A DNA stretch of 58,114 nt from Candidatus Coatesbacteria bacterium (GTDB lineage: Bacteria > RBG-13-66-14): contig WJLX01000179.1 of NCBI GenBank assembly GCA_014728225.1, positions 1-58,114 of the forward strand, read 5' to 3'. Under the pieces are notes generated by a model that did not search any database, was not told the DNA's origin, and worked only from the letters and a program-made list of their open reading frames with translations. Below, in pieces: positions 31,477 through 38,452 of the stretch. Made by a program: the position numbers and the translations under genes. Within the stretch, counting starts at the first letter, position 1, and every line of letters begins with the position of its first letter.

Positions 31477-32284
31477 ATGTTTGAGTTTGATGAGGTAAAT
31501 GATTGGACTCTCATCAAGCACGATATCATAAAGGAATATGCTCATGCATATACAACTATATTAAACAAAAAGGGTTTTAAGAAATATTATATTGATGCAT
31601 TTGCTGGCGCTGGAATGCATAAGAAGCGTTGTGACGGTGAATTTGTAAATGGTAGTCCTCTAAATGCATTAGATATTATTCCTTCCTTTAATCGCTTCTT
31701 GTTTATAGATTTAGATGGTGATAAGATAAGTCATCTTAAAATATAAATTGGAAGTAGAAACGATGTTGTATTTAAAGAGGGGGATTGTAATTGTCATTTA
31801 AGAGAAATCTTTCCAAAAATAAGCTATAATGCTAAACAGCGTGCTCTTTGCATATTAGACTCATATGGATTGCATATAAAGTGGGATGTAATAAAATTAG
31901 CAGGAAAACAAAAATCAATAGAATTATTTATCCATTTTCCCGTCATGGATATACAAAGAAATGCATTATGGGCGAATCCGGATCGTTTACCTGAGGATAA
32001 AATTGAAAGAATGAATAGAGCCTGGGGTGATTCATCGTGGCTCGATGTTTCATATGATAATTCACAGCTAACATTTAATGGGGAAAAGCATAAAGTGAAA
32101 AAGAAGACCGAGGCGATATTAAATGAGTTTCGTAATAGATTAATAAATATTGCTGATTATTTTTGTACCAAAGCCGAAGCCAATGAAAACAAAACGTGGT
32201 TCAATTATTTACTATTTATACTTTGCTTCGCAGGTTAATATCGCAGGTAAAATTGTAAAAGACATCTTTCGTAAACCAAGATAG
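31477..32284 (+). pseudogene. tcmP: Broken three-Cys-motif partner gene (TcmP-like)
   Basis: A strikingly AT-rich gene. After a perfect AAGGAGGTG ribosome-binding site and ATG it reads WTLIKHDIIKEYAHAYTTIL...YYIDAFAGAG, typical of TcmP, the partner of Gp37/Gp68 proteins. An in-frame TAA at 31744-31746 interrupts it, and the same frame then continues with FKEGDCNCHL...ALCILDSYGLHIKWD. One extra T at about 32208-32210 shifts the frame. Removing it restores YYLYFASQVNIAGKIVKDIFR to a TAG at 32282-32284, three bases before the next gene. With both lesions repaired the protein would be about 268 residues. So the gene carries a nonsense codon and a +1 frameshift. Confidence 0.82.
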
Positions 32285-32286
32285 AT

Positions 32287-33033
32287 ATGGCCATTAATAC
32301 TCCCATCGAGTGGACCTCCTCCACCTGGAACCCGGTCACCGGCTGCACGAGGATCAGCCGGGGCTGCGATCACTGCTACGCCGAGCGCCTGGCCAAGCGT
32401 CTGCGGGCCATGGGCCAGGCCAAGTATCGCAACGGCTTCGCGGTGACCCTCCACGAAGACGAACTCGAACGACCCTTTGCCTGGAAGAAACCCCACCTGA
32501 TCTTCACCTGCTCCATGGGCGACCTGTTCCACGAACAGGTTCCTTTCGAGTTTATCGAGCGGGTTTTCGACGTCATGGCCCGGACGGAGCGCCACGTCTA
32601 CCAGGTGCTGACCAAGCGCGCCGCGCGGCTGGCGGAGCTGGCGCCAGGGCTCGATTGGCCGGACAATATCTGGATGGGGGTCACCGTTGAGGCGGCGGAT
32701 TATCTGCAGCGAGTTGCCCACCTGAGGCGGGTTCCGGCGCGAGTGCGCTTTCTCAGCCTGGAGCCCCTGCTGGGTCCGGTGGACGAATTGAACCTGGAGG
32801 GCATCGACTGGGTCATCGTCGGCGGCGAGTCGGGGCCGGGGGCCCGCGTGTTGCGCAAGGAATGGGTCTACCAGGTGCGGGAGAAGTGCGCAGCCGCCGG
32901 GGCGGCCTTCTTCTTCAAGCAGTGGGGCGGGACAAACAAGAAAAAGTCCGGCCGCCTGCTCGACGGTCGGACCTACAGCGCCATGCCGGAAACCTTACGG
33001 AAACACTCGCCGCAGTTGCTGCTCGCCCCCTAG
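32287..33033 (+). CDS. Phage Gp37/Gp68-family (DUF5131) three-Cys-motif protein
   Basis: A 248-residue protein starting MAINTPIEWTSSTWNPVTGC. The three-cysteine motif C-x7-C-x2-C (GCTRISRGCDHCYAERLAKR) resembles a radical-SAM cluster site. Other family blocks are SMGDLFHEQVP, VLTKRAARL, NIWMGVTVE, LSLEPLLGP, VIVGGESGPGAR and FFFKQWGG. Length and motifs look intact. The usual TcmP partner lies directly upstream but is broken. This gene has host-like high G+C while the partner is AT-rich. The molecular function of the pair is not established to my knowledge. Confidence 0.88.
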   Translation: MAINTPIEWTSSTWNPVTGCTRISRGCDHCYAERLAKRLRAMGQAKYRNGFAVTLHEDELERPFAWKKPHLIFTCSMGDLFHEQVPFEFIERVFDVMARTERHVYQVLTKRAARLAELAPGLDWPDNIWMGVTVEAADYLQRVAHLRRVPARVRFLSLEPLLGPVDELNLEGIDWVIVGGESGPGARVLRKEWVYQVREKCAAAGAAFFFKQWGGTNKKKSGRLLDGRTYSAMPETLRKHSPQLLLAP

Positions 33034-34304: not shown

Positions 34305-34382
34305 GGACCGGCGCGGTTCTTGCGCCGGGTCGAGCCGGTCGATAGCCGGGTCGACTCGGCCTGCAATGAACCGTGACGGTCC
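34305..34382. repeat. Palindromic intergenic repeat, copy R5 (diverged)
   Basis: Arms at 34305-34323 (GGACCGGCGCGGTTCTTGC) and 34363-34382 (GCAATGAACCGTGACGGTCC) are imperfect complements carrying the CGGTTNTTGC core. An inner GC-rich stem (CGAGCCGG...) fills the spacer. It lies between the divergent tadA and GNAT genes. Confidence 0.75.
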
Positions 34383-34429: not shown

Positions 34430-34458
34430 TTGACACCCCGCCCGGAGGCGTCTATATT
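34430..34458 (+). promoter_or_regulatory. Sigma70-type promoter for the GNAT leader
   Basis: A perfect TTGACA (34430-34435), a 17-base spacer and TATATT (34453-34458). Start of transcription near 34465 would give a leader of about 370 bases before the GNAT gene. Confidence 0.8.
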
Positions 34459-34464
34459 ACTACC

Positions 34465-34763
34465 AGTTACACGCGGGTAGAACCGACCGCCATTATTCTA
34501 CACTGGAACGCCGGGTTATTTGCAGTCCCGGCAGCCGAACGAGGTGCGAGTGAATCGTTATCGCGACAGCCACGGAGGCGTGATGAGCGCTACGGCCCGC
34601 CGGCCGTACGTCGACGCCTGCGCCGGTGTCTGGGTGCGTCTTAATGCGCCCCTCGGCGGTGACTTCATCACCCTCACTGTACCTCGACGGCGAAGTGGAC
34701 CCTAGAATATAGGGCATCAAAATACCAAGCCGCCGTCGAGGGAAACCTCGGCGGCGGTTTTTT
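34465..34763 (+). ncRNA. Leader RNA with competing terminator and antiterminator (candidate riboswitch/attenuator)
   Basis: The leader ends in a strong terminator: 12-bp stem 34730-34741 with 34746-34757, a GAAA loop and six T residues (34758-34763). The 5' arm of that stem (CGCCGTCGAGG, 34731-34741) is also a perfect 11-base complement of CCTCGACGGCG at 34682-34692, so the two pairings exclude each other. Smaller hairpins lie upstream: CCGGG...CCCGG, GGGTGC...GCGCCC, GGTGA...TCACC and CCCTA...TAGGG. A short open frame (34520-34705) has no good ribosome-binding site. I recognise no known riboswitch class. A TGGACC near 34695 recalls a T-box, but its other elements are missing. Confidence 0.6.
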
Positions 34764-34838
34764 ACGCGCCCCAACGGCGGCTCGACGGACCGCCCGCGCT
34801 GGACAATCATCATTATTCGTTTGTTAACGGGAGTGACC

Positions 34839-35804
34839 ATGCTGATCAGGCACTATCGACCCGCGGACCTGGCCGCCCGCACCCGGTTGATCAACCGCTG
34901 TCGACCGCTGTACCCCACCAGTTCGGCGGTGCTGGCCCACTGGGACAACCGGCAACCCGCCGCCGGCTATCGCTATTTCGTCGTCGGTGAGCACGACGGC
35001 GCCCTCGTCGCCGAGGCCGATCTCAATTCCTGTGATTGGAGCGTCAAGGGCGGGGTCTACCAGCTGGACCTGCTGGTCGATCCGTCCCGGCGCCGCCGGG
35101 GTTACGGACGCCGGCTGTGGCAGCAGGTGCTGCGCCAGCTCGAGCGCCTCGACTGGAGCGAGCTGCTCGTCGACGCCTCGGCGGACTGCAAGCCCGCCGT
35201 GGCTTGGATCAAGCTTCTGGGCTTCGAGCTCTGCGACACCGAGCTGCCCTCGCGGCTGGAGCTCCGCCGCTACCGGCGACCCGCCGATTACGACGCGGCC
35301 CTCGAGCGCTTCACCGGTCAGGGCTTCGAGCTGCGGAGCTACGGGGAGATCCGCGATGACGATAAAGAGGAGAAGCTCTGGCGGTTGACCGAGGACGTCA
35401 CCGCCGACATGCCGGGCAGCCTGGAGTACCAGCGGCGCAGCCTGGAGAGCTGGCGGCGGGTGATGGACAGCCCGGCCAGGGATATCGACACCACGCTGAT
35501 CGCCCTCGACGCCGCCGAGTTCATCGGTTTGACCAGCCTGGCCCGTTACGCCGGACCCCATGCGGCGGCGGAGATCGACTGCACCGGCACCCGGGCCGAC
35601 TACCGCGGTCGCGGCGTGGCCACGGCGCTGAAGTACGCCAGCGTCGACCGGGCCCGCGAACACGGCGTCCCGGCGATCTACACCTTCAACGCCGACGGCA
35701 ACGAGGCCGTGCTGAGCATCAACCGCAAGCTCGGCTTCCAGCCCCAGCCGCCCTGGCTGTGCTTCAGCCTGAAGAACGATACCGCCGACGATTACGGCAT
35801 CTGA
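34839..35804 (+). CDS. Double-domain GNAT acetyltransferase
   Basis: A 321-residue protein with two GNAT folds. The first (about 1-150) has LDLLVDPSRRRRGYGRRLWQQVL, the acetyl-CoA-binding motif A, and the second (about 155-321) has TRADYRGRGVATALKYASVD and N-x-AVLSINRKLGFQ. The ATG at 34839 is preceded by GGGAG. The substrate is unknown. Double GNATs include self-protection enzymes for peptide or nucleotide antibiotics, which is suggestive beside the ABC exporter and micro-ORFs downstream but proves nothing. Confidence 0.88.
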   Translation: MLIRHYRPADLAARTRLINRCRPLYPTSSAVLAHWDNRQPAAGYRYFVVGEHDGALVAEADLNSCDWSVKGGVYQLDLLVDPSRRRRGYGRRLWQQVLRQLERLDWSELLVDASADCKPAVAWIKLLGFELCDTELPSRLELRRYRRPADYDAALERFTGQGFELRSYGEIRDDDKEEKLWRLTEDVTADMPGSLEYQRRSLESWRRVMDSPARDIDTTLIALDAAEFIGLTSLARYAGPHAAAEIDCTGTRADYRGRGVATALKYASVDRAREHGVPAIYTFNADGNEAVLSINRKLGFQPQPPWLCFSLKNDTADDYGI

Positions 35805-35831
35805 GAATACACCGACCGTTAAGGAGGGAAG

Positions 35832-35966
35832 ATGGAACGGATCATCCGCACGGAGCGGCGCGGGGAGCGTCTGCGCCTGATCAACCGCCCCCGCGTTCGC
35901 GCGGCGGCCGTCTGGACCCGGCGCCGCAGGCACCAATCCACCCTTCCCCGACCGGATCACGCCTGA
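35832..35966 (+). CDS. Arg-rich micro-ORF 1 (44 residues)
   Basis: A perfect AAGGAGGG precedes an ATG at 35832, with the stop at 35964-35966. The product is very basic (MERIIRTERRGERLRL...RTRRRRH) with no recognisable domain. It lies between the GNAT gene (27 bases before) and the ABC ATPase (68 bases after). It could be a leader peptide or a small export substrate. The ribosome-binding site is the main evidence for translation. Confidence 0.45.
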   Translation: MERIIRTERRGERLRLINRPRVRAAAVWTRRRRHQSTLPRPDHA

Positions 35967-36034
35967 GACGGGCGCCGGCCGGGGAGCGCGACCAAGACGA
36001 CAACGGAGGCCGTCCTCCGCTTTAAGGAGCAACC

Positions 36035-36850
36035 ATGGTTACCACGAACGAATACGCCGTGCGCTGCACCGGCCTGGCCAAGCAGTTCAAGAGAGCCTTC
36101 GCCCGCAAGAAGAAGAACGGCGGAAAACGCGTCGTCCTCGCCCTGGACGGCATCGATTTCACGGTCCGCCGGGGGGAGATCTTCGGCATCATCGGCCCCA
36201 ACGGCTCCGGCAAGAGCACCCTGGTGCGCTGCCTGTCGACCCTGCTGTTCCCCGACAGCGGACGGATGGAGGTCTTCGGCCTCGACGTCATCGACGAGGC
36301 CCCCCGGGTCAAGCGGCTGATCAATCGGGTCAGTGTAGACGCGGCCTTCTTCAAGAAGCTGTCGCCCTACGAGAACCTGATCTACGCCGCCCGGCTCTAC
36401 GGCGGCCGCCGAACCGACGTCAAGGAGGAGGCGCAGCGCATCCTCGACGGCCTCGACTTCCCGAAGGACAAATTCAGGGAACCGATGCAGGAACTCTCCC
36501 GGGGCCAGCAGCAGAAGGTGGCCATCGCCCGGGCGCTATTGACCTCGCCGGTGCTGCTGCTCCTCGACGAGCCCACCACGGGGCTGGACCCCAAAAGCAA
36601 GCTCCAGGTGCAGGCCTTCGTCCGCCGGCTGCGACGGGACCATGACGCCACGGTCCTGTTGACCAGCCACGACATGGACGAGGTCGAGCGGATCTGCGAC
36701 CGTCTGGCCATCATGGACGACGGCCGGATCCTGGAGACGGGCACCGCCGCCGAGCTGCGCGAGCGTCATCGCGACAACGGCAGTCTGCCCACCCTGGAGC
36801 AGGTCTTCCTCAAGGTCGCCGGTCACGGTTGGCGGCCCGAGGAGGAATAA
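36035..36850 (+). CDS. ABC-2 type exporter ATP-binding protein
   Basis: A 271-residue ATPase with Walker A GPNGSGKST, signature ELSRGQQQK (variant of LSGGQ), Walker B LLLLDEPTTGLD and H-loop LTSHDMDE. The C-terminus LEQVFLKVAG is typical of the NatA/DrrA/CcmA branch that works with a separate ABC-2 permease. An unusual insertion (FARKKKNGGKR) sits before the first strand. AAGGAG precedes the ATG. The permease gene follows 86 bases later. Confidence 0.92.
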   Translation: MVTTNEYAVRCTGLAKQFKRAFARKKKNGGKRVVLALDGIDFTVRRGEIFGIIGPNGSGKSTLVRCLSTLLFPDSGRMEVFGLDVIDEAPRVKRLINRVSVDAAFFKKLSPYENLIYAARLYGGRRTDVKEEAQRILDGLDFPKDKFREPMQELSRGQQQKVAIARALLTSPVLLLLDEPTTGLDPKSKLQVQAFVRRLRRDHDATVLLTSHDMDEVERICDRLAIMDDGRILETGTAAELRERHRDNGSLPTLEQVFLKVAGHGWRPEEE

Positions 36851-36936
36851 CCGACCCGCAACTGACGGGGACGGCTTGTCCGTTCGCGGCTCCGTCCCCG
36901 TTGCAGCCCTTTTTGACCTCCGAAGGGAGGCCCGAG

Positions 36937-37785
36937 ATGTCCGAGAAGCAACCGACAACCGTCAAGAAAGCCCGCCCCCGCCTGCTGAATAGTTTCGCCC
37001 GGGAGGCCAAGGCTTCCTACGCCTTCGTCGAACGCAACTTCAACCTCGTCAAACGTTACATCAACTGGGAGATCGTCTTCCTGGCCTACACCATCGTCAA
37101 CACCCTGACCATCGGCCTGATCGCCGTCGGTCAGCCCGGCGCGGACCGGGTGCTCTACCTCGTGGTGGGGGCGCTGCTCTGGAGTTACCTGTCGGTACTC
37201 TTCGAGGTGGTCAGCGAGGACGTGGCCTGGGAGCGCTGGGAAGGGACCATCGAGTACACCTTCATGGCCCCGGTGACCCGGCTGACCCGCCTCGGCGGCA
37301 CCTGCTTCTTCGCCGCGGTCTACGGCCTGCTGCGCACGGCCATCGTGCTGGGCGTGGTGGTGCTGTTCTTCGACCTCTCCCTGGCCGGAGCCAATATCGG
37401 CGCCTTCATGATCGTGCTGGCCTCGTCCAGCTTCGCCTTCATGGGGTTGGGCATCATCGCCGCCGTGCTGCCGCTGATCAGCCCGGAGAAGGGCGCCCAG
37501 GCGACGCACATCATCCAGGCGCTGATCCTGCTGGTCTCCGGCGTCTACTACGAGATCGACGTCCTGCCGGCCTGGCTGCGGCCGCTGTCCTACGTCAGCC
37601 CGGCGACCTACACCCTGCGGGCCAGCCGCGCCGCCCTGCTCGACGGCGCCGGGCTGGAAAGCCTGTGGGGCGACATCCTGATCCTGCTGGGCATGGGGGT
37701 GGCGCTGATACCGCTGGGCCTGTGGATCTTCGGCCTGGCCGAGCGCCACGCCAAGCGCACCGGCAAGCTCAAACGCAGCGGCTGA
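36937..37785 (+). CDS. ABC-2 type exporter permease
   Basis: A 282-residue membrane protein with about six hydrophobic segments, including EIVFLAYTIVNTLTIGLIAV, VLYLVVGALLWSYLSVLF, TAIVLGVVVLFF and ILILLGMGVALIPLGLWIF. The block IQALILLVSGVYYEIDVLPAWLRPLSYVSPATYTLRASR is characteristic of ABC-2 permeases. The ATG at 36937 follows GGGAGG; the frame opens earlier but that stretch is the spacer after the ATPase gene. The exported substrate is unknown. Confidence 0.9.
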   Translation: MSEKQPTTVKKARPRLLNSFAREAKASYAFVERNFNLVKRYINWEIVFLAYTIVNTLTIGLIAVGQPGADRVLYLVVGALLWSYLSVLFEVVSEDVAWERWEGTIEYTFMAPVTRLTRLGGTCFFAAVYGLLRTAIVLGVVVLFFDLSLAGANIGAFMIVLASSSFAFMGLGIIAAVLPLISPEKGAQATHIIQALILLVSGVYYEIDVLPAWLRPLSYVSPATYTLRASRAALLDGAGLESLWGDILILLGMGVALIPLGLWIFGLAERHAKRTGKLKRSG

Positions 37786-37801
37786 AGAAAAACCGCTGGA
37801 A

Positions 37802-37830
37802 CTGAAACCGGCGCCAATTTCTTGTATCTT
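37802..37830 (+). promoter_or_regulatory. Candidate promoter for the micro-ORF transcript
   Basis: CTGAAA (37802-37807), a 17-base spacer and TATCTT (37825-37830) lie 55 bases before micro-ORF 2. With the hairpin at 38238-38265 this would delimit a transcript of about 430 bases holding micro-ORFs 2-4. Confidence 0.4.
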
Positions 37831-37885
37831 ATAGAGACACAGGGGGAGATGAAGGCCCCCGACAACCGCGGAAAGGAGGGCAACC

Positions 37886-37957
37886 ATGAAGCTCACCAAG
37901 TTCAAGCAGCGCCGGAGCGTGCGCACCGTCGGCCTCTACGGCTTACGTACGCCATAA
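37886..37957 (+). CDS. Micro-ORF 2 (23 residues) ending LYGLRTP
   Basis: AAAGGAGGG lies six bases before the ATG. The basic peptide MKLTKFKQRRSVRTVGLYGLRTP ends in a TAA at 37955-37957. Its last seven codons plus stop recur in micro-ORF 3 with only synonymous changes. No family is recognised. It may be a precursor of a small secreted or modified peptide for the adjacent ABC exporter. Confidence 0.5.
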   Translation: MKLTKFKQRRSVRTVGLYGLRTP

Positions 37958-37973
37958 CGGATCGTGCGCGGCG

Positions 37974-38048
37974 GTGACGCTGAAAACGGCGATTGCCGTC
38001 GACGCGATCCGGCGGAGGCACTGCCTCTACGGCTTACGCACGCCGTAG
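37974..38048 (+). CDS. Micro-ORF 3 (24 residues) ending LYGLRTP
   Basis: GTG 37974 opens a frame, MTLKTAIAVDAIRRRHC then LYGLRTP, ending in TAG. The last eight codons (38025-38048) differ from those of micro-ORF 2 at three bases: CGT/CGC, CCA/CCG and TAA/TAG. All are silent. The ribosome-binding site is weak. The DNA also contains a CTACGGC/GCCGTAG inverted repeat that is not conserved in micro-ORF 2. Confidence 0.4.
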   Translation: MTLKTAIAVDAIRRRHCLYGLRTP

Positions 38049-38100
38049 CGGGTCGCCCACAATAAACCTGAACCACCAACTCCACTCCAAGGAGATAAGC

Positions 38101-38205
38101 ATGTATCCCTTCGACGATTTGAGTCTCGCCCGCCAGCAGGACCTCGAAGCCCTGTTCAGCAACCTGAGCAGCATCGACGGCGGCGACGAGAAGGAAAACC
38201 TCTAG
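38101..38205 (+). CDS. Micro-ORF 4 (34 residues) with a double-glycine-like motif
   Basis: AAGGAG lies seven bases before the ATG. The acidic peptide begins MYPFDDLSLARQQ and contains LEALFSNLSSIDGG followed by DEKENL. The LSSIDGG part resembles the double-glycine cleavage site of bacteriocin-type leaders, with isoleucine at -4 and leucine at -7. The neighbouring ABC exporter has no C39 peptidase domain and the presumed core would be only six residues, so this reading is tentative. Confidence 0.5.
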   Translation: MYPFDDLSLARQQDLEALFSNLSSIDGGDEKENL

Positions 38206-38237
38206 TCCGCCTCAAGAAGCGAACGTAAACACGGAAA

Positions 38238-38265
38238 ACCGGCGGGGTTTCGCGACCCCGCCGGT
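38238..38265 (+). terminator. Hairpin after the micro-ORFs
   Basis: A perfect 11-bp stem (ACCGGCGGGGT / ACCCCGCCGGT) with a TTCGCG loop. On the minus strand it is followed by TTTTCC, so it may act in both directions. Confidence 0.6.
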
Positions 38266-38382: not shown

Positions 38383-38452
38383 GGGCCGGCGCGGTTGTTG
38401 CGCCGGGTTCTCCCGCCGGGGAGAACCCGGCCTGCAAGAACCGTGACGGCCC
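38383..38452. repeat. Palindromic intergenic repeat, copy R6 (diverged)
   Basis: Arms at 38383-38401 (GGGCCGGCGCGGTTGTTGC) and 38434-38452 (GCAAGAACCGTGACGGCCC) surround an inner stem CCGGGTTCTC...GAGAACCCGG. It lies between the convergent micro-ORF transcript and the activator gene. Confidence 0.75.

Follow-up and report, generated by a model that had tools for sequence, protein, structure and literature searches.

Background

In Bacillus subtilis, the ATP-binding cassette (ABC) exporter BmrCD is preceded by the bmrB leader, a GTG-started open reading frame (ORF) of 53 codons with a terminator in its 3' part, and the exporter is induced by drugs that act on the 50S ribosomal subunit; chloramphenicol, erythromycin, and lincomycin induce BmrBCD by ribosome-mediated attenuation (PMC4191407). 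Here we analyzed a locus of similar layout, positions 34430-38265 of a 58,114-nucleotide stretch of DNA (the window), which is contig C179 of the 2.96-Mb Coatesbacteria genome G000. The original prediction for this locus was a single peptide system made up of an attenuated leader, a double GNAT acetyltransferase, an ABC-2 exporter, and four micro-ORFs. Every listed element was found at or close to where it had been placed; the attenuated leader and the GNAT-ABC operon stood, and their union with the micro-ORFs in one peptide system did not. The stretch is two units, an exporter operon (34430-37785) and a micro-ORF unit (37798-38264). We put the probability that the operon is under ribosome-mediated (leader-peptide) transcription attenuation at roughly 0.7, based on its anatomy, the conservation of that anatomy, and both folds in silico. 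Regulation so read is of a known kind, leader-peptide attenuation, and the micropeptide pair beside it is unexplained.

The window shares with bmrB and bmrCD a GTG-started leader ORF of ~50 codons, an antiterminator and terminator in or after its 3' end, and a two-gene ABC exporter downstream. It differs in that the exporter is an ABC-2 (DrrAB-like) pair accompanied by a GNAT, and in that the terminator follows the stop codon, whereas that of B. subtilis lies within bmrB; the antibiotic response known for BmrBCD is proposed here. The leader attenuators of VmlR and MsrD and the upstream ORF of Escherichia coli topAI-yjhQ likewise connect ribosome inhibition with downstream gene expression (PMC9226507, PMC10314930, PMC12121999), but they belong to other phyla and their targets are ABC-F factors and a toxin-antitoxin operon. 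The leader peptide also ends in R-x-G-P like the SecM and RAPP arrest peptides, a resemblance only; those peptides regulate Sec/YidC genes, whereas the leader in the window precedes an ABC exporter and would act by terminator attenuation (PMC10951299, PMC10987492). It was not assigned to the Sec/YidC-related arrest peptides, the downstream genes being a GNAT and an ABC-2 pair.

Conservation of the leader across the phylum

The leader occupies positions 34430-34763 (Table 1). In shuffles of the region, the expected number of promoters as good as the one at its start was 0.3. The rules of a promoter/terminator scan picked up this promoter but not the leader terminator, the evidence for which is therefore its folding. 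The ORF between them, whose stop codon is at 34703-34705, is the conserved micro-ORF of the operon and had gone unnamed in the original prediction. No Rfam family matched the leader at gathering thresholds, and relaxed thresholds returned sub-threshold chance matches only.

The comparison covered 14 genomes of the phylum, G000 included. Family f1 comprises G000, G002, G003, G004, and G006, and the ABC pair also occurs in other families (G007-G013). The leader plan was present upstream of the pair in all 12 genomes that have it, including the families without a GNAT; the ATPases of the remaining two genomes, G001 and G005, are only ~38% identical. The equivalent place in L031, L032, L034, and L035-L040 holds a TTGAC(A/T)...TATATT-type promoter, and in the GNAT-less families a TTGAC(A/T)-TTATATA-type promoter, a short ORF preceded by a Shine-Dalgarno (SD) sequence, and a terminator come before the ABC pair. 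A short ORF with a ribosome-binding site lies between promoter and terminator in each of the 12 leaders. The ORFs vary from 18 to 51 codons and differ in sequence, and the distance from stop codon to the end of the U-run is 53-64 nt throughout.

The f1 leaders can be aligned with one another, and a covariance model built on them (R1) gave one strong match per genome, at this operon, in the five f1 genomes; outside f1 its matches were weak only. Model R2, built from the other families, recovered their leaders and, weakly, L033 and L034 at the correct places. Three weak R2 matches were inspected, two outside the phylum and one elsewhere in G000. One of these, in an unrelated genome (L127 1300-2000), is an attenuator-like leader peptide (MRYALALSLGLALIVGPAGGRA) before an acetolactate-synthase-like gene; it resembles an unrelated amino-acid leader attenuator and was rejected as a copy of this leader. 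The other two were not recognizable as this leader.

Gene order and spacing suggest that the exporter belongs to one transcription unit with the leader. The promoter and terminator do enclose a complete unit of ~300 nt, which could be an independent small-RNA or small-protein gene, with the GNAT and ABC genes read from another promoter. We regard this as improbable. The GNAT starts ~40-50 nt past the terminator in three relatives (L031, L032, L034), leaving little space for another promoter; the leader occurs once per genome, directly upstream of this operon; it also precedes ABC genes that lack a GNAT; and a conserved antiterminator would be pointless in a stand-alone RNA. As judged by comparison of the 12 leaders, the leader plan is a property of the ABC genes, because it also precedes ABC pairs that have no GNAT. 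Insertion of the GNAT between leader and ABC genes in f1 would account for the arrangement most simply.

Alternative folds of the leader

Terminator folds were predicted for four of the five full-length f1 leaders. When the leaders were cut before the last arm, most paired arm 1 with arm 3, a mutually exclusive fold. The terminator/antiterminator leader of the original prediction proved real, and it extends to relatives. Arm 1 of the window was equaled by 1 of 500 shuffles (2 of 300 with a shorter arm). Nothing else in the leader complements arm 3 as well as arm 1 does in four of the five f1 leaders, where arm 1 lies 10-13 nt before the stop codon; equally good complements arose in 1-5 of 500 shuffles or, for a shorter arm, in 2-16 of 300. 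When core arms were extracted by hand from ten leaders (seven distinct rows), two of the six positions of each helix, antiterminator and terminator, had compensatory changes. These counts lean towards structure, since predicted folds guided the choice of arms by eye. Shuffles attained the covariation score in 13 of 500 and 22 of 500 cases, and sliding the partner abolished antiterminator pairing.

Several results weigh against attenuation by this switch. In L034, an A-C mismatch keeps arm 1 from being the best complement of arm 3. Arm 1 was not significant in the shuffle test for L035 and for the reduced leader L041, and in L036-L040 arm 3 often finds its best complement in a second, more upstream copy, which makes the exact antiterminator less certain. 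Substitutions in the f1 leader peptide (L031, L032, L034) showed no departure from the null in how they fell within codons. The GNAT passed none of the resistance-family cut-offs against which it was compared, and neither cargo nor signal can be read from the sequence. Mutually exclusive folds, with the antiterminator arm close enough to the end of the ORF for a ribosome there to reach it, are clear in the window and in four of five f1 leaders, and less certain in L034, L035, and L041.

Probable translation of the leader ORF

Outside f1, some of the leader ORFs carry protein-level signal. Comparisons of f5 with f3 leaders gave protein-level scores above the null in several of the ten pairs tested (uncorrected), and the pair L036-L038 had 10 synonymous changes where 4.3 were expected (P = 0.007; BLOSUM 0/1000). 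A C-terminal core is conserved near the arms, WVxVPxARW(R/K/G)(G/S)V in f3/f5 and RRR(S/R)GP in f1. Because of the conservation in f3/f5, the universal SD, and the near-fixed stop position, translation of the ORF appears likely; the peptide sequence itself would matter at most in its C-terminal core.

The lack of peptide-level conservation within f1, together with the conserved RNA arms, would also suit an RNA-only switch, either a riboswitch or a protein-binding attenuator, in which the ORF is incidental. This alternative is unlikely: an SD and short ORF accompany all 12 leaders at a near-fixed distance from stop to terminator, part of f3/f5 is conserved at the protein level, and no large conserved aptamer was seen, ORF lengths and sequences diverging freely and Rfam giving no match. 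A somewhat better, though still doubtful, candidate is a special case of attenuation in which the leader peptide serves as a nascent-chain sensor (arrest peptide) dedicated to the exporter substrate or a specific drug and not as a general sensor of translation rate. The conserved C-terminal cores near the arms and the SecM-like R(A/S)GP ending, the latter a resemblance only, point that way, but the core differs between families and arm pairing explains part of its conservation.

Proposed mechanism of exporter control

Under ribosome-mediated attenuation, transcription would start behind the promoter at 34430 and a ribosome would translate the 51-codon leader ORF. A ribosome that reached the stop codon would cover arm 1, so that arm 3 would pair with arm 4 and the resulting terminator would keep the GNAT and ABC genes off. 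If the ribosome stalled early, for example on a ribosome-targeting antibiotic, or failed to load, arm 1 would be free to pair with arm 3; the antiterminator so formed would let polymerase read through into the genes for the GNAT and the ABC-2 exporter. The exporter, aided in f1 by the acetyltransferase, would then remove or modify a toxic compound. That the switch is coupled to translation, and which way it works, are inferred; on this reading the pump would most likely come on when protein synthesis falters. By analogy with described systems, the cargo is probably a drug or toxic metabolite, and drug export seems the likeliest role because of the geometry and induction precedent of BmrBCD. 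The least certain part of the proposal is that an antibiotic would be the signal and a drug the cargo.

If this reading is correct, an uncultured phylum has conserved the attenuation of an exporter by ribosome sensing as a regulatory trait, through changes in the leader peptide, the RNA arm sequence, and even the neighboring gene (GNAT present or absent). It would also hint that these uncultured bacteria meet ribosome inhibitors. The set of 12 leaders would then form a natural series for asking which features a leader peptide must keep.

Table 1. Features of the exporter operon and the micro-ORF unit in the window (aa, amino acids).
Feature	Coordinates	Strand	Basis
Operon promoter, TTGACA-N17-TATATT	34430-34458	+	11/12 consensus positions, 17-nt spacer
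Leader ORF, GTG start, SD GAGGTG, 51 codons, ending VPRRRSGP-stop	34550-34705	+	SD and ORF at equivalent place in 12/12 phylum leaders
Predicted antiterminator arm 1, within last codons of leader ORF	34681-34693	+	Best complement of terminator 5' arm; compensatory changes
Small hairpin over leader stop codon, inside antiterminator	34700-34714	+	Predicted folds
Intrinsic terminator: arm 3 (34727-34741), arm 4 (34746-34759), U-run	34727-34763	+	-28 to -30 kcal/mol; terminator there in 12/12 leaders
Double-domain GNAT acetyltransferase, 321 aa	34839-35804	+	Pfam Acetyltransf_1 and Acetyltransf_3; f1 orthologues
Basic 44-aa ORF with SD	35832-35966	+	Not convincingly conserved
ABC-2 type ATPase (DrrA-like), 271 aa	36035-36850	+	Sequence and profile matches
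ABC-2 type permease, 282 aa	36937-37785	+	Pfam ABC2_membrane; permeases next to the ATPase in relatives 52-81% identical
Promoter-like block, GGAACTGAAACCGG-N11-TGTATCTTATAGA	37798-37835	+	Zero-mismatch core match
Micro-ORF m23, basic, 23 aa, MKLTKFKQRRSVRTVGLYGLRTP, ending GLYGLRTP	37886-37957	+	G001 homologue MLKLNERKNHLRTLGLYGLRVPRQN
Possible 24-aa GTG ORF, LYGLRTP end re-encoded	37974-38048	+	33-nt direct repeat
Micro-ORF m34, acidic, 34 aa, MYPFDDLSLARQQDLEALFSNLSSIDGGDEKENL	38101-38205	+	Gapless 34-aa G001 homologue
Closing hairpin (terminator) of micro-ORF unit	38239-38264	+	Sequence; G001 unit also ends in terminator-like hairpin

A separately conserved micro-ORF unit

The micro-ORF unit is conserved apart from the operon, as in a second genus it stands free of adjoining GNAT or ABC genes. 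In G001, contig C240 (L090/L093) has the same promoter-like block, both peptides, and a terminator-like hairpin. Among the 14 genomes, the searched core of the block matched without mismatch in the window and G001:C240 only. On that 8-kb contig, neither a GNAT nor an ABC gene adjoins the unit; the ORFs tested there encode a zinc-ribbon protein, RNase Y, and a HAD hydrolase, and the closest ABC ATPase anywhere in G001 (~38% identical) is no close relative.

Over their C-terminal 11 codons, m23 and its G001 homologue differ by 5 synonymous and 2 nonsynonymous changes (P = 0.016; BLOSUM 0/5000). The G001 counterpart of m34, MYSYDELSLVRQVELEGLLRELSRDDGREHNKPQ, aligns without gaps at 44% identity, and its BLOSUM score exceeds the substitution null (P = 0.0026). 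Because of these substitution patterns between G000 and G001, m23 and m34 are very probably real small proteins under selection, and very probably not linked to the exporter; the pair would add a small peptide family. A 33-nt direct repeat (37932-37964 and 38023-38055; 88% identical, at a spacing of 91 nt) provides a second copy of the LYGLRTP-stop end of m23, and the possible GTG ORF derived from it is absent in G001. A degenerate-pattern search for the pair in 386 genomes returned G000, G001, and one chance match only, and a profile search with m34 in 117 genomes was convincing in G000 and G001 only.

Microcin C-type clusters have small ORFs near an exporter and an acetyltransferase. Proximity in the window and the conservation of two micro-ORFs as peptides could suggest a comparable peptide-antibiotic or bacteriocin-like system, with micro-ORF precursors, ABC export, and GNAT immunity, but such a system is highly improbable here. 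The original prediction had named gene order in related genomes as its check; in the relatives examined, the link between GNAT and ABC genes was kept and that between micro-ORFs and exporter was broken. The downstream micro-ORFs are hard to retain as the peptides of the exporter, since the unit stands without GNAT or ABC genes in G001 and the pair had no match in the other four GNAT-ABC genomes (G002, G003, G004, and G006). The 44-residue micro-ORF was not convincingly conserved either, having no counterpart in the GNAT-ATPase gap of L031, L032, and L034. A 19-aa ORF at L033 2796-2929 (MKNLKKKNRHRWLINRPPI) overlaps the end of the GNAT frame and shares with the 44-aa ORF only LINRP (3 synonymous differences). 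No maturation enzyme domain was found among the operon proteins or the tested adjacent ORFs, and Pfam showed no peptidase domain in the ABC pair, which other members of the phylum have without a GNAT or micro-ORFs. Assignment to microcin C-like clusters was rejected, as the locus showed neither linkage of precursor and exporter across relatives nor a maturation enzyme.

More speculatively, the two units might represent two novelties: a phylum-wide, undescribed class of attenuators whose nascent peptide (core WVxVPxARW or RRRSGP) senses the exporter substrate, and a separate, new micropeptide pair (a basic GLYGLRxP peptide and a 34-aa acidic one) acting together under its own promoter. This combination is possible, with the odds against it.

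GNAT and ABC-2 genes and surrounding region

Each GNAT domain has an acetyl-CoA-binding signature R-x-x-G-x-G/A (RRRRGYGRR and RGRGVA). The order leader-GNAT-ATPase is kept in G002, G003, G004, and G006, so the earlier linkage of GNAT and ABC genes holds within f1; the GNAT is a tandem pair in G003 and G004. The permease comes next in G003 and G004, and the contigs of G002 and G006 end before it. In all seven genomes of the other families, the ABC pair has no adjoining GNAT, and its ATPase and permease are 49-53% and 52-64% identical to those of the window. A second double-GNAT paralogue is encoded at G000:C104:2517-3473 (L062, L096), without an attenuator leader.

As in DrrAB-type exporters (TIGR01188, TIGR01247), the ATPase and the ABC-2 permease are encoded together. 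The window pair reached 223 of 312 and 46 of 223 bits, well below the curated NCBIfam cut-offs, and was not assigned to the DrrAB daunorubicin-resistance transporters. A PDB sequence search found no relative of the permease, and the genes around the ABC pair in other families offered no clue to its cargo. In G012 (L036 6929-9493), a single ABC ATPase precedes a tandem array of three permease paralogues that share 52-56% identity with the permease of the window.

Flanks are partly shared, as judged by eye from translations: G003 has Omp85-like and DUF5131-like genes, and G006 a tadA-like gene directly upstream, both as in the window. Further upstream in the window, near 31477-32237, a gene for a three-Cys-motif partner protein (TcmP, TIGR04474) is split into an N-terminal part (31477-31746) and a C-terminal part (31870-32238). 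It adjoins a DUF5131/radical-SAM mobile-pair-A-like gene (32287-33033), and its appearance suggests a disrupted gene or a frameshift from assembly in a low-GC region.

Palindromes R5 and R6 (34310-34330 and 38388-38408), which had been taken as the bounds of the system, define no unit. Both belong to a dispersed repeat with the core GGCGCGGTTNTTGCGCCGGGT, which had 23 matches in the genome at ≤3 mismatches, against 3 for the reversed control pattern.

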